Shown piece after piece: positions 17,041 through 21,111 of a stretch of 32,933 nt of DNA (its first letter is position 1; the number at the start of each line of letters is the position of its first letter). The position numbers and the translations under genes were made by a program. The stretch is taken from positions 1-32,933 of the forward strand of contig JAGHER010000190.1 in NCBI GenBank assembly GCA_017889125.1, read 5' to 3'. The stretch is from Lachnospiraceae bacterium (GTDB lineage: Bacteria > Bacillota > Clostridia > Lachnospirales > Lachnospiraceae). The notes below the pieces were generated by a model, which saw nothing but the letters and a program-made list of their open reading frames with translations, was not told the origin of the DNA and ran no database searches.

Positions 17041-17077
17041 TTTTTTTAAGGAAACGCTGATTAAAGCGTTTCCTTAA
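17041..17077 (-). terminator. Intrinsic terminator of the subtilase gene, built from a dispersed hairpin
   Basis: TTAAGGAAACGCT (17046-17058) and AGCGTTTCCTTAA (17065-17077) are perfect 13-bp complements around GATTAA, and on the minus strand are followed by seven-plus A/T pairs giving a U-run. The stop codon of the subtilase lies within one arm. The 20-bp core recurs with one mismatch at 30882-30901. Confidence 0.85.
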
Positions 17078-17970
17078 GGATCTGCCAGCAGCCGCTTCAC
17101 ATCCAAAAGTCCCCACCCCTGCTGGTTGTGGGGAAGGCCCAGGTCTTTGGACCGTTCCCGCAAGCGGAGCTTTACCTCCTTGTTGGTCATCTGGGGATAT
17201 TTTTCCAGGAGAAGGGCGATGGCGCCGGTGACCAGAGGAGTACTCATGCTGGTGCCGCTTTTGATCTGGTATTTCTGAGGGAGATTGGAGCAGCTGACGA
17301 TCCGTGAGCCGGGGGCCACAATATCCGGCTTCAGCACACAGGCGGCGGTGGGACCCCGGCCGGAATAATCCACCATCCGGTTTCCCATGACCGTCACTGC
17401 CTGGTCATCATCTGAGCTTCCCACGGTGATCACCTTGCGGCTGATTCCCGGAGTGGTGATGCTCATGGCTCTGGGCCCCTGGTTTCCGGCGGCAATCACC
17501 ATCACCAGTCCTTCGTCCCAGGCGGCATCCACCCCCCGCACCAGGACAGAATCCTCATGCATCACCTTTCGGCTGAAGGACCCTACAGAGATATTGACGA
17601 TGCGGATGCCGTATTCCTCCCGGTGCTCCCGCACCCATTTAAGGCCCGCCAGCACATCAGAGGCGTAGCCGTTTCCCTTTTTGTCCAGCACCTTCACGCA
17701 GATCAGCCGGCATTCCGGCGCCATCCCCTGAAAGCGGTTCTCCGAGGCGCATCCGGTGCCGCCGATGATGCCGCACACATGGGTGCCGTGAGAATTATCA
17801 TCATAGGGCTCGCTCCTTCCCCGTACCATGTCGCAGAAGCCCGTCACCCTTTCCCGCAGGTCGGCATGGAGGTAAACGCCGGTGTCCAGCACCGCCACCC
17901 CCACGCCTTTTCCCGTAACCCCAAGCTGAAAACTGTCTCCCCAGTTAATCTGCTTTTTTATACGATCCAT
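17074..17970 (-). CDS. S8-family subtilisin-like serine protease, probably intracellular
   Basis: A 298-residue compact subtilase with the full catalytic triad: Asp in AVLDTGVYLHADL (residue 29), His in DDNSHGTHVCGI (residue 61), Ser in SGTSMSTPLV (residue 241), and the oxyanion Asn in IAAGNQGP (residue 163). No signal peptide or propeptide is visible, which resembles the intracellular serine proteases of Bacillus rather than secreted subtilisins. The start is uncertain. ATG 17970 (MDRIKKQINW) has a GGAAG site 7 nt upstream and fits the usual family start; ATG 18117 would add 49 residues, has GGGAG 8 nt upstream, and is closer to the promoter. The end overlaps its own terminator. It is divergent from the HIT gene. 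Confidence 0.9.
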   Translation of the reverse strand: MDRIKKQINWGDSFQLGVTGKGVGVAVLDTGVYLHADLRERVTGFCDMVRGRSEPYDDNSHGTHVCGIIGGTGCASENRFQGMAPECRLICVKVLDKKGNGYASDVLAGLKWVREHREEYGIRIVNISVGSFSRKVMHEDSVLVRGVDAAWDEGLVMVIAAGNQGPRAMSITTPGISRKVITVGSSDDDQAVTVMGNRMVDYSGRGPTAACVLKPDIVAPGSRIVSCSNLPQKYQIKSGTSMSTPLVTGAIALLLEKYPQMTNKEVKLRLRERSKDLGLPHNQQGWGLLDVKRLLADP

Positions 17971-18142
17971 GCCGGTACTTCCTTTTTCATTCCTCATTCT
18001 TCTCTTAAGATATTCCAAAACGCCTTCTGCGGTGCCCCTCCACGCACATTCCTTCACACCGGCAGGCAGGCCGTCACCGCGTCCCGTCATGACCGGCAGA
18101 AAGACCGCAAAATCCATTGAATTTGCTCCCATATCGTGATAA

Positions 18143-18200: not shown

Positions 18201-18629
18201 ATGAAGGATCAAAATTGCGCATACTGCATGCAGGGCGACCTTGTGGCACAGTTTGCATACCCCGTCTGCCAGATGGAAAGCGGCTATCTCTATGTATTCC
18301 GTGAGCAGAGCAAGCGCGGCCGTGTAATCCTGGCTCACAATAAGCATGTAAGCGAGCTCATCGACTTAACTGACGAGGAGCGGAACCAGTTTTTCGCTGA
18401 TGTAGCTGCTGTGGCCCGGGCTGTTCACAAGGTATTCAGCCCGGACAAGGTAAACTACGGCGCCTATGGTGACACCGGCTGTCATCTGCATTTCCACATC
18501 GTTCCCAAGTACAACGGCGGCGATGAGTGGGGCGGCACCTTCCAGATGAACCCCGGAAAGGTTACCCTCACCGACGCGGAATATGAAGAGATGGCAGAGG
18601 CCCTCCGCCAGGCATTAAAAGAACAGTAA
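18201..18629 (+). CDS. HIT-family nucleotide hydrolase/transferase
   Basis: A 142-residue histidine-triad protein. HIT enzymes hydrolyse nucleoside phosphoramidates or dinucleotides such as Ap4A. The triad is intact: GCHLHFHIVPKY with His95, His97 and His99. The N-terminal CAYCMQGD (Cys6, Cys9) with a downstream histidine resembles the zinc site seen in some HIT proteins, and RGRVILAHNKHVSELIDLTDEE fits the fold (region about 39-60). AAAGGAG lies about 8 nt before the ATG. The SseB-like gene follows 28 bp downstream and is probably co-transcribed. The cellular substrate is unknown. Confidence 0.93.
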   Translation: MKDQNCAYCMQGDLVAQFAYPVCQMESGYLYVFREQSKRGRVILAHNKHVSELIDLTDEERNQFFADVAAVARAVHKVFSPDKVNYGAYGDTGCHLHFHIVPKYNGGDEWGGTFQMNPGKVTLTDAEYEEMAEALRQALKEQ

Positions 18630-18657
18630 AGAATTTCAGAAGGGACTTACGTAAAAC

Positions 18658-19461
18658 ATGGCTATCGATAATACATTTGCAATCAAAAAGCTCCAGAAGC
18701 TGGAAGAGGTCTGGGCGGTCTTCTCCCCCCTTACCCGCCTGCCCTATGTGGACTGTGATCCGGAAACCTTTGACGATCAGATCTATCTGTACGCCGGAGA
18801 GGAGGACTGCCGCGAATATATAAAGCAGCTGGCAGAGAAGAAGGTTCCCACCTCCGTCTTAAAGATTCCCCAGGCGCAGCTGACCGGCTTCCTCAACAGC
18901 CTTTACGCTCTGGATGTGAATCGGGTGGTCTTCCACGACGGCGGCGGACAGAGCCCCATCGACTTAGAGGCCCTGGTGAAGCGCCCGGACATGGAAAAGC
19001 TTGCCGCTGCCAAGATCCCGGCGATGAACCCGTCTCTCACCCTTACCATGATTTACTTCCTGCAGGAGCTGCGCCGGCCCGTCAAGCATGACATGGCAAA
19101 GCTTCACGAGCTGGAGGAGGAGATGATTGTAAATCTGGTAAAATCCAGCTTTATTCTGGGAATTGAGACCATCAACGATGAGGAGAACACGGATCCGGAG
19201 AAGGTAAACATTAAAAATGTCCGCATCCCCTTTGTCAAAACCAAGGAGGGCGACATCTACCAGCCGATCTATTCTGATTTTTCGGAATTCCGCAAGTACA
19301 CCGCCCGCAGCGCCCAGAAGCAGCGCATGTCCGTCCTGGGTCTGCGTCAGCTCCCCCAGTTCCTGATTAAGGAATCCAAGGGCTTCGTGCTGAATCCCGC
19401 CGGGGTGAACCTGGTGCTTACCGCCGACCAGCTGAAGCGGATTTTAAATGACTATCAGTAA
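18658..19461 (+). CDS. SseB-family protein
   Basis: A 267-residue soluble protein with an SseB-like architecture. The N-terminal half (about 15-105) has the SseB beta/alpha pattern (VWAVFSPLTRLPYVDCD, SVLKIPQAQLTGFLNSLYAL, DVNRVVFHDGG). The C-terminal half (about 205-267) has KTKEGDIYQPIYSDFSEFRK and the typical final segment GFVLNPAGVNLVLTADQL. SseB proteins were named for a Salmonella enhanced-serine-sensitivity factor, and the clostridial members have no established biochemical role. A linker at about 130-170 is rich in charged helices. It lies 28 bp after the HIT gene, on the same strand, and is followed by a strong terminator. Confidence 0.8.
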   Translation: MAIDNTFAIKKLQKLEEVWAVFSPLTRLPYVDCDPETFDDQIYLYAGEEDCREYIKQLAEKKVPTSVLKIPQAQLTGFLNSLYALDVNRVVFHDGGGQSPIDLEALVKRPDMEKLAAAKIPAMNPSLTLTMIYFLQELRRPVKHDMAKLHELEEEMIVNLVKSSFILGIETINDEENTDPEKVNIKNVRIPFVKTKEGDIYQPIYSDFSEFRKYTARSAQKQRMSVLGLRQLPQFLIKESKGFVLNPAGVNLVLTADQLKRILNDYQ

Positions 19462-19475
19462 GAAACAGGAAAAAG

Positions 19476-19511
19476 AATCCCCGGAAAGCCCGCGAGCCTC
19501 CGGGGATTTTT
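19476..19511 (+). terminator. Intrinsic terminator of the HIT-sseB unit
   Basis: AATCCCCGG (19476-19484) pairs with CCGGGGATT (19500-19508), and the T-run TTTTT follows. It closes the upstream operon, so plus-strand RNA made downstream must come from another promoter. Confidence 0.88.
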
Positions 19512-19559
19512 ACAAAATAAACGAAAACCAGGGCAGATTTCCTTCAAAATAGTAAGAAA

Positions 19560-19598
19560 TTAAGAAAATCTTCATAATCTATTTAAGGAACATTCAAA
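19560..19598 (+). promoter_or_regulatory. Four direct repeats at exact 11-bp spacing, response-regulator-like (PhoP/PhoB-type) box
   Basis: TTAAGA (19560), TTCATA (19571), TTTAAG (19582) and TTCAAA (19593) start at exact 11-bp steps, each followed by a 5-nt AT-rich spacer. This is the geometry of OmpR/PhoB-family operators; the Bacillus PhoP repeat is TT(A/T/C)A(C/T)A. TTCATA fits that consensus fully and the others partly. The block ends 20 bp before the extended -10 TGCTATACT (19616-19624), which lacks a good -35, as expected for an activator-dependent promoter. Confidence 0.55.
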
Positions 19599-19615
19599 CA
19601 TTTTCCAGCAGCCTA

Positions 19616-19624
19616 TGCTATACT
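19616..19624 (+). promoter_or_regulatory. Extended -10 promoter of the candidate small RNA
   Basis: TGCTATACT carries the TGn extension and five of six -10 bases. There is no acceptable -35 at 16-18 bp, which suggests dependence on the repeats at 19560-19598. Transcription would begin near 19631. Confidence 0.55.
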
Positions 19625-19630
19625 AAGACC

Positions 19631-19724
19631 ATAAGAAATGCACAAGCAACAATCCTTTAATTCCTTTTTGAAATTGAAATTCCTAAAGAAAAGCAACCCC
19701 GTGGCGTCACACACGGGGTTTTTT
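19631..19724 (+). ncRNA. Candidate small regulatory RNA (about 94 nt)
   Basis: An orphan plus-strand unit: promoter at 19616-19624, no ribosome site, and an intrinsic terminator ending at 19724. The preceding operon already ends at 19476-19511, so this terminator needs its own transcript. The RNA is AT-rich and carries three CCU motifs (AATCCTTT about 19651-19658, AATTCCT at 19659-19665 and 19678-19684) that could pair with Shine-Dalgarno sequences. A 40-codon frame from ATG 19638 runs through the terminator and lacks a ribosome site, so it is not credited. No known RNA family is recognised. Confidence 0.5.
19695..19724. terminator. Intrinsic terminator of the candidate small RNA, also after lysA
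   Basis: AACCCCGTG (19695-19703) pairs with CACGGGGTT (19712-19720) and is followed by TTTT on the plus strand. On the minus strand it lies 16 bp after the lysA stop and has a looser T-rich tail, so it may serve both. Confidence 0.85.
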
Positions 19725-19739
19725 CTGTCCAAAATCATC

Positions 19740-21008
19740 TTAATTCATCTCATCAAATAAATCCGTAAAATCAAAGGTCGCAAAGTAATCCTTCGGCGTC
19801 TCTGCCCTGCGGATCATCTCCACAGAACCGTCCTCCTTTAAAAGAAGCTCTGCTGACCGCAGCTTTCCATTATAATTGTAGCCCATGGAGAAGCCGTGAG
19901 CGCCGGTATCGTGAATCACCAGGTAATCGCCCTTGTCGATGGCAGGAAGCATCCGGTCCACAGCAAACTTATCATTATTCTCGCACAGGGAGCCCACCAC
20001 ATCGTACTTGTGATCCAGAGGCTGATCCTCCTTCCCCATAACGGTGATATGGTGATATGCCCCGTACATAGCCGGGCGCATCAGGTTCACCGCGCAGGCG
20101 TCCACGCCGATGTATTCCTTATAAGTGTGCTTTTCGTGGATGGCCTTGGTCACCAGACAGCCGTAGGGGGCCAGCATAAAGCGTCCAAGCTCCGTATACA
20201 GAGCCACATCTCCCATACCTGCGGGAACCAGCACCTCCTCATAGACCTTGCGTACCCCTTCTCCGATGGCCAGGATGTCATTGGGCTCCTGGTCGGGACG
20301 GTAGGCCACGCCTACGCCGCCGGAAAGATTGATAAAGGAAACCTTCGCCCCCGTCTTCTGCTGCAGCTGCACGGCCAGCTCAAAAAGGGTGCGGGCCAGA
20401 GTGGGATAATACTCGTTGGTCACCGTATTGCTGGCTAAGAAAGCATGGATGCCGAAATTCTTCGCGCCCTTTCCCTTCAGGATGCGGAATGCCTCCTCGA
20501 TCTGCTCCGTAGTCATGCCGTACTTGGCCTCGCCGGGATTGTCCATGATGTTGTTGCTGATGGAAAAGGTGCCGCCGGGATTGTAGCGGCAGCTGATGGT
20601 CTCCGGGATATAGCCCAGTGTCTCCTCCAGGCATTCAATATGGGTAATGTCATCCAGATTGATGATGGCGCCCAGCTTATCTGCGTAGGCAAATTCCTCC
20701 GGCGGGGTCTCATTGGAAGAAAACATAATCTCCTCTCCCGCAAAGCCGCAGGCCTTGGACATCATCAGCTCGGTCATGGAGGAACAGTCCGTGCCGCAGC
20801 CCTCCTCCTTTAAGATCTTTAAGATGAAGGGATTGGGCGTCGCTTTTACGGCAAAGTACTCCTTAAAGCCCTTATTCCAGGAAAATGCCTGGTAAAGCTT
20901 TCTGGCGTTCTCCCGGATCCCCTTCTCATCGTACAAGTGAAAGGGGGTGGGATAAGTCTCGGTAATCTCCCGGATCTGCTCCAGGGTGACAAATGGTTTC
21001 TTTTCCAC
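19740..21008 (-). CDS. lysA: Diaminopimelate decarboxylase
   Basis: A 422-residue PLP-dependent fold-III decarboxylase that converts meso-diaminopimelate to L-lysine, the last step of lysine synthesis, in the cytoplasm. The PLP lysine is in YFAVKATPNP (Lys55); other family blocks are CGTDCSSMTELMMS, FLASNTVTNEYYPT, LSGGVGVAYRP, ELGRFMLAPYG, and the substrate-site cysteine in GSLCENNDKF. It belongs to the clostridial subgroup with ISNNIMDNPGEAKYGMT. GTG 21008 is chosen because AGGAG lies 7 nt upstream; the longer reading to 21083 would pass through the promoter and leader. Arginine/ornithine-type activity is possible in this fold, but the motifs favour DAP. It follows pyk by 117 bp and has its own promoter. 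Confidence 0.93.
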   Translation of the reverse strand: MEKKPFVTLEQIREITETYPTPFHLYDEKGIRENARKLYQAFSWNKGFKEYFAVKATPNPFILKILKEEGCGTDCSSMTELMMSKACGFAGEEIMFSSNETPPEEFAYADKLGAIINLDDITHIECLEETLGYIPETISCRYNPGGTFSISNNIMDNPGEAKYGMTTEQIEEAFRILKGKGAKNFGIHAFLASNTVTNEYYPTLARTLFELAVQLQQKTGAKVSFINLSGGVGVAYRPDQEPNDILAIGEGVRKVYEEVLVPAGMGDVALYTELGRFMLAPYGCLVTKAIHEKHTYKEYIGVDACAVNLMRPAMYGAYHHITVMGKEDQPLDHKYDVVGSLCENNDKFAVDRMLPAIDKGDYLVIHDTGAHGFSMGYNYNGKLRSAELLLKEDGSVEMIRRAETPKDYFATFDFTDLFDEMN

Positions 21009-21081
21009 AATAGTTCTCCTCTCTTCATGTAAAGGTAAATATACGCAAAGGCCCATGGCCGGGCCCGCGGCCTCTCTGGCC

Positions 21082-21111
21082 ATTGTACCCGAACATGGAC
21101 CTCATTGTCCA
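21082..21111 (-). promoter_or_regulatory. Promoter of lysA
   Basis: -35 TGGACA (21106-21111), 18-bp spacer, and -10 TACAAT (21082-21087) on the minus strand, 74 bp before the GTG start. The leader contains a GC-rich stretch (GGCC repeats at about 21054-21080) that can fold. It is too short for a lysine riboswitch and lacks its motifs. Confidence 0.55.

Follow-up and report, generated by a model that had tools for sequence, protein, structure and literature searches.

What lies at positions 19560–19724 of this contig, in the gap between an sseB-like gene and a lysA-like gene? The window, the whole stretch of 32,933 nucleotides that was analysed, is one contig of a 4.0-Mb Lachnospiraceae genome. 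A sequence-only reading had proposed a small RNA under the control of a response regulator, possibly one that answers to phosphate. Our analysis points to a small trans-acting RNA that is activated by an OmpR/PhoB-type response regulator and pairs with Shine-Dalgarno sites; we give this reading a probability of about 0.68. We refer to the promoter and the predicted RNA together as the element.

The upstream neighbour codes for an SseB-domain protein (PF07179 by domain search; 18658–19461, plus strand). The hairpin just past this gene (19473–19511, plus strand) lies within a fold of −21.7 kcal/mol, and the upstream operon thus has a terminator of its own, as had been claimed. On the other side, a gene for a lysA-like PLP decarboxylase (PF02784 and PF00278) runs convergently on the minus strand. 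Its longest frame is 19740–21083, within which the true start may be located. A Subtilase-like gene (Peptidase_S8 by domain search) is found at 17074–18132.

The operator (19560–19599, plus strand) was defined by a pattern search and by identity among congeners. It is made of four direct repeats at 11-bp steps: TTAAGAA at 19560, TTCATAA at 19571, TTTAAGG at 19582 and TTCAAAC at 19593. The hexamers TTAAGA, TTCATA, TTTAAG and TTCAAA and their exact spacing are as the sequence-only reading had described them. Four TTNA units at 11-bp steps occur once in the window, counting both strands, and in none of 100 dinucleotide shuffles; under a local Markov model the value for this pattern within 19461–19740 is 0.00025. 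Downstream of the repeats, an extended −10, TGC-TATACT (19616–19624, plus strand), can be read directly. The closest −35 by eye, CAAACA at 19595–19600, has three of six matches with an 18-bp spacer, and a promoter scan of 18500–21000 found no sigma-70 two-hexamer promoter. Both results agree with the proposal of a TG-extended −10 that lacks a usable −35. OmpR-family regulators bind such repeats head-to-tail and activate promoters without a −35. The element has the arrangement of an OmpR-family target, with 11-bp direct repeats that overlap or replace the −35, and by analogy control by a response regulator of this family is plausible.

A DNA search found the element in 10 of the 11 genomes of the genus. 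Mean pairwise identity among the congeners follows the parts of the element. It is 93% for the operator region (19560–19603; 10 congeners), where certain Cs and Gs never vary across the alignment, 98% for the −10, and 99% for the 5′ end CATAAGAAATGCACA (19630–19644, plus strand). The hairpin shows 87% and the middle 62%, and the 44-nt flanks on the two sides of the element fall to 30% and 23% (9 of the 10 congeners). In related Lachnospiraceae, then, the operator, the −10, the 5′ end and the hairpin are conserved, with little identity in the flanks. A model search recovered the element from 30 of 397 family genomes (26 of 334 genera). A wider model matched 12 of 392 genomes of the order, all in Lachnospiraceae; the share of the 392 that lies outside the family is not given, and the count hence sets no outer limit. 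The family and order counts are lower bounds because the stricter filters of Infernal were on. The element is absent or was missed in 367 of the 397 family genomes, and the family can thus do without it. What had been observed in one genome was therefore correct, and only its scope was understated, since the element is conserved across many genera.

The RNA would end at an intrinsic terminator (19697–19724, plus strand) with a stem at 19697–19703/19712–19718, the loop GCGTCACA and a T6 run at 19719–19724. The terminator scan called a stem at 19695–19720 plus the T-run, in line with the terminator first noticed by eye. Across 38 aligned homologues, two of them cut short (L007 and L097), 99.2% of the stem cells are paired, and changes on both sides occur at six of the seven pairs; the alignment was fitted to the tested stem itself. 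The stem and loop sequences differ between genera, so the loop's conservation among congeners does not hold more widely. The order from promoter to terminator is constant among the aligned homologues.

Such a hairpin next to lysA might be no more than a (bidirectional) terminator of that gene, with the repeats unrelated or without a transcript. lysA is indeed often convergent and near, the hairpin folds on the other strand too, and one homologue gave a reverse-strand match. However, the minus-strand tail is poorer (GCTTTTCTTT), and the −10 and the 5′ end, separate from the hairpin, are conserved as well. They are also retained at loci where lysA is upstream in the same orientation or missing from the flanking genes, and we regard this explanation as highly improbable. 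Within the genus, sseB flanks the element at 9 of 10 loci and lysA at 8 of 10. At 20 extra-genus loci the flanking frames, two per side, were compared by BLAST: lysA was present at 13 and a homologue of the 17074–18132 subtilase at 12, and at seven lysA was not among the flanking frames. At four loci (L005, L007, L141 and L143), lysA is on the same strand and runs towards the element, and the promoter is retained. A promoter that is kept when neighbours and orientation differ, together with the conservation, argues for an independent small RNA whose promoter has a weak −35 and depends on the repeats, which was the core of the earlier proposal. At 9 of the 20 extra-genus loci the subtilase gene is divergent and the next gene upstream, and both it and the small RNA may be under the operator there. 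In genome G006 the element lies at one contig end and sseB near the end of another contig; as both are near contig ends, their separation is uninformative on linkage. At G646:C8:130725-130817 (minus strand), a reverse-strand match runs across the 3′ part of the element.

The predicted small RNA spans about 94 nt (19631–19724, plus strand), as suggested by conservation and by a fold z-score of −3.5 over 19631–19727. Its putative start, 19631, was placed 7 nt downstream of the −10. In the predicted fold the first 8 nt from this position are unpaired and a 3-bp stem follows; the conserved 5′ end is a candidate pairing seed. Three CCU motifs had been pointed out in the body, and each can be read directly as UCCU (19653–19656, 19662–19665 and 19681–19684, plus strand). 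These are candidate anti-Shine-Dalgarno sites. With the start set 7 nt after the −10 and the final 32 nt counted as terminator, the bodies of the 38 homologues carry on average 2.76 CCT, against 0.56 in shuffles. At least two copies are present in 32 of the 38 and at least three in 22. The predicted unpaired probability is 0.85 for the CCT bases versus 0.60 for the remaining body.

We also considered a small peptide that starts at the conserved ATG at 19638. In 29 of the 38 homologues an ATG lies no more than 20 nt from the predicted start, but the frames that begin there run from two codons to open-ended, and the other nine homologues, one of them a truncated match, lack the ATG. Length differences are not multiples of three, and no Shine-Dalgarno sequence is seen before the ATG. 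As the frames are not conserved in the 38 homologues, we rejected the peptide, which now seems scarcely credible. The stretch of about 94 nt had been described as free of a credible gene, and it contains no conserved reading frame. To judge from its sequence, the element looks like RNA and not protein. None of the Rfam 15 families reached its gathering score for the element (the top score was 22.8 bits against a cut-off of 42), and the sole match in the window is a tRNA elsewhere.

Two kinds of known small RNAs resemble the element. In the parts of the csRNA papers that we draw on (PMC3091779, PMC8186281), csRNAs of streptococci are described as small intergenic RNAs with their own terminator, several per genome and controlled by the response regulator CiaR. 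They have a strong promoter with TT-rich hexamer repeats at 11-bp steps and an unpaired stretch complementary to the Shine-Dalgarno sequence; the CiaR site is given as NTTAAG-N5-TTTAAG, with ten bases to the −10 as the search rule. The element likewise is intergenic, has its own terminator and contains a predicted unpaired stretch of this kind. Unlike the csRNA promoters as described there, it does not follow the rule of TTTAAG-N5-TTTAAG, 10 nt and −10. Its TTTAAG at 19582 is followed by TTCAAA at 19593, a second unit without the G, and 20 bases lie between it and the −10. This puts the end of the repeats roughly one turn of the helix farther away from the −10 (20 vs 10 bases). There are four units, TTAAGA/TTCATA/TTTAAG/TTCAAA, and both the sequence and the host family are different.

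According to the excerpted text of PMC4132741, LhrC of Listeria depends on LisR and uses repeated accessible C/U motifs to bind its mRNA target; the motif is tied to Shine-Dalgarno blocking, and no LisR consensus was known at that time. The element shares the repeated accessible C/U motifs and a putative response-regulator control. Its motifs are UCCU/CCUU, in contrast to UCCC in LhrC, and its body is predicted to be largely open, whereas LhrC as described has two stem-loops with motifs in and between the loops. Against the LhrC family (Rfam RF00616) the element scores 21.2 bits, far under the cut-off of 110, and it is not a member. The best reading is that it works like csRNAs and LhrC without belonging to either. 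A block of ribosome binding through UCCU/CCUU, analogous to the action described for UCCC in LhrC, is the most likely mode of action. The element is not mentioned in the consulted passages of a start-site study of C. phytofermentans (PMC5171806), whose libraries had a 200-bp threshold. Our search of one open-access library, judged by the titles listed, found no paper on such a Lachnospiraceae RNA. All the sequence marks of a known kind of small RNA are present in the element, which would be a new case that is unlisted in Rfam 15 and unseen in this literature, and it would extend the csRNA/LhrC logic to another lineage.

The same promoter grammar recurs in a second RNA, here called RNA B. Its layout consists of 11-bp TTCATA/TTCAAA/TTTACA units, a TATACT-like −10, TTTTTTTCATAAT, a hairpin and CUCCUCCC, usually with a terminator beyond. 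Up to six 11-bp steps are seen upstream at B loci. The CUCCUCCC stretch is anti-Shine-Dalgarno-like, and AACCATA often follows the −10 in the element and in RNA B alike. A TTCATG unit about ten bases before the −10 is frequent in B promoters; these were read at the 30 best-placed loci of the core model, 27 of them from element carriers. RNA B differs from the element in its own core hairpin, its sequence, its neighbours and its wider spread. Six B loci scanned gave no Rfam match at the cut-off.

RNA B first came to light among the listed matches of an operator-like pattern that was run over 30 genomes, almost all of which carry the element. From 20 chosen sites the core was tested in 15 and present in 13, and 10 entered the model, which excludes the promoter. 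This model matched 103 of the 397 family genomes, among them all 30 element carriers. RNA B is thus found in 30/30 carriers versus 73/367 other genomes (p 7e-20), and in 23/23 carriers once the seven seed genomes are removed (p 1e-15); shared ancestry is not corrected in either value, and the model leans to carriers because RNA B was discovered by an operator pattern in mostly carrier genomes. Most of the 73 non-carrier matches score weakly, and at E<1e-8, 22 of the 24 genomes with RNA B are element carriers. The genome of the window has two B loci, L259 (G000:C231:837-903) and L148:2097-2162, the second of which was missed by the core model. Other B loci include L150, L154 and L163.

Unit matrices built from one RNA also match operators of the other. 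A matrix derived from RNA B detects the operator of the window in register from 19560, against 0/3000 shuffles, and passes in 37 of the 38 element homologues; one B locus, L239, had too little upstream sequence and was left out of this analysis. Conversely, we took 22 B loci found with the RNA core model after removal of the listed seeds and pattern hits; one locus, in G375, belongs to the genus of a seed, and further overlap is possible, as the removal covered the matches listed. Three TTHA units at 11-bp spacing are present in 16 of these loci and lacking in six, against an expected 0.18, and at spacings of 9, 10, 12 and 13 bp there are none. The element-derived matrix passes in 15 of the 22. 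The presence of the B core in all 30 carriers and the like 11-bp repeats suggest one regulator with two RNA outputs. A broader proposal is that a response-regulator regulon of Lachnospiraceae has as its main outputs two unrelated anti-Shine-Dalgarno RNAs, the element and RNA B, with four to six 11-bp sites each, and that this is an unseen two-RNA stress circuit in dominant gut bacteria. We hold this tentatively, at somewhat less than even odds.

Pho boxes, too, are built of direct repeats at 11-bp steps, and one unit of promoter B is TTTACA. Both would fit a phosphate-responsive small RNA of the PhoP/PhoB regulon, as the sequence-only reading had suggested. From 30 pst-like loci, 19 were read along with the genome's own one, which gave 20 upstream regions. 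The element triple is found in 0/20 of these regions and in 33/38 element homologues, whereas a TTTAC pair at 11 bp is found in 17/20 and 0/38, respectively; both patterns were picked after looking at the sequences. In matrix scoring of 18 of the 20 regions (two with a plainly wrong start were left out), the element matrix passed in one and the B matrix in two. In its own genome and in relatives, the element thus carries a different box from the pst promoters. The comparison speaks against the suggested phosphate link, and we consider a PhoP/PhoB small RNA very unlikely. The pst upstream regions (L029, L168-L185 and L190) themselves show the Pho-box-like pair before pstS in 17 of 20 cases.

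For the element as a target of an OmpR/PhoB-type regulator, the following sequence of events can be proposed. The phosphorylated regulator would bind the 11-bp repeats, which lie upstream of the missing −35 and overlap it, and would recruit RNA polymerase to the TG-extended −10. The transcript, about 94 nt long, would stop at its own terminator. Through the unpaired UCCU/CCUU motifs and the conserved 5′ end it would then pair with Shine-Dalgarno regions of target mRNAs and so prevent their translation. RNA B, with its CUCCUCCC stretch, appears to be driven by a like promoter. By analogy we would guess at an envelope-stress signal. Little seems to have been charted of small-RNA control in the Lachnospiraceae, a major family of the gut. 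An RNA that is defined in sequence and has both a clear promoter and an RNA partner offers a direct experimental entry.

The repeats may have another role, either as sites of a non-OmpR regulator or as a phased A+T-rich upstream element for polymerase. They are A+T-rich, and the cognate regulator was not found in our scans of the PF00486 loci of the genome or in the co-occurrence test for L057, both given below. The specific C and G positions invariant in the genus and the exact 11-bp unit that recurs in B promoters argue against this. The usual precedent for such repeats is also OmpR-family binding, of which CiaR is an example. We regard a non-OmpR role as unlikely, though less so than the lysA terminator or the phosphate link.

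We searched for the OmpR-type regulator by scanning 22 PF00486 loci of the genome for operator-like autoregulation sites. The four-unit operator scan gave nothing strong. In the three-unit scan, for which the B units were taken from a summary list, L063:944-972 scored 15.2, compared with 15.0 for the genome's own B operator and a shuffle maximum of 10.3. The match is on the strand opposite to the response-regulator gene, approximately 60–90 nt before it, and is possibly an autoregulation site. L063 was the only one of the 22 loci that was both above its shuffles and equal to the own B operator. L061 and L051 were above their 8 shuffles with a lower score than L063, and L067, L058 and L064 exceeded theirs by smaller margins than L061 and L051. 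For comparison, the HssR box consists of two GTTCATATT repeats.

In genome G093, genes for a response regulator, a histidine kinase and a lipoprotein lie upstream of the small RNA (L140:4957-7921). The lipoprotein has repeated short domains that are PepSY-like by eye. L057 is the orthologue of this regulator-kinase pair in the window's own genome (70% and 62% identity). At E<=1e-60, an L057-type regulator was found in 14/30 carriers versus 87/367 other genomes (p 0.007). Although enriched, it is missing from 16/30 carriers at this threshold, and we rejected the pair as the general regulator; some of the absences may be misses, since the search scored at most seven candidates per genome. In two genera (L164 and L167), operator-like repeats also precede the same gene cluster, which includes a gene that is cdaA-like by eye.
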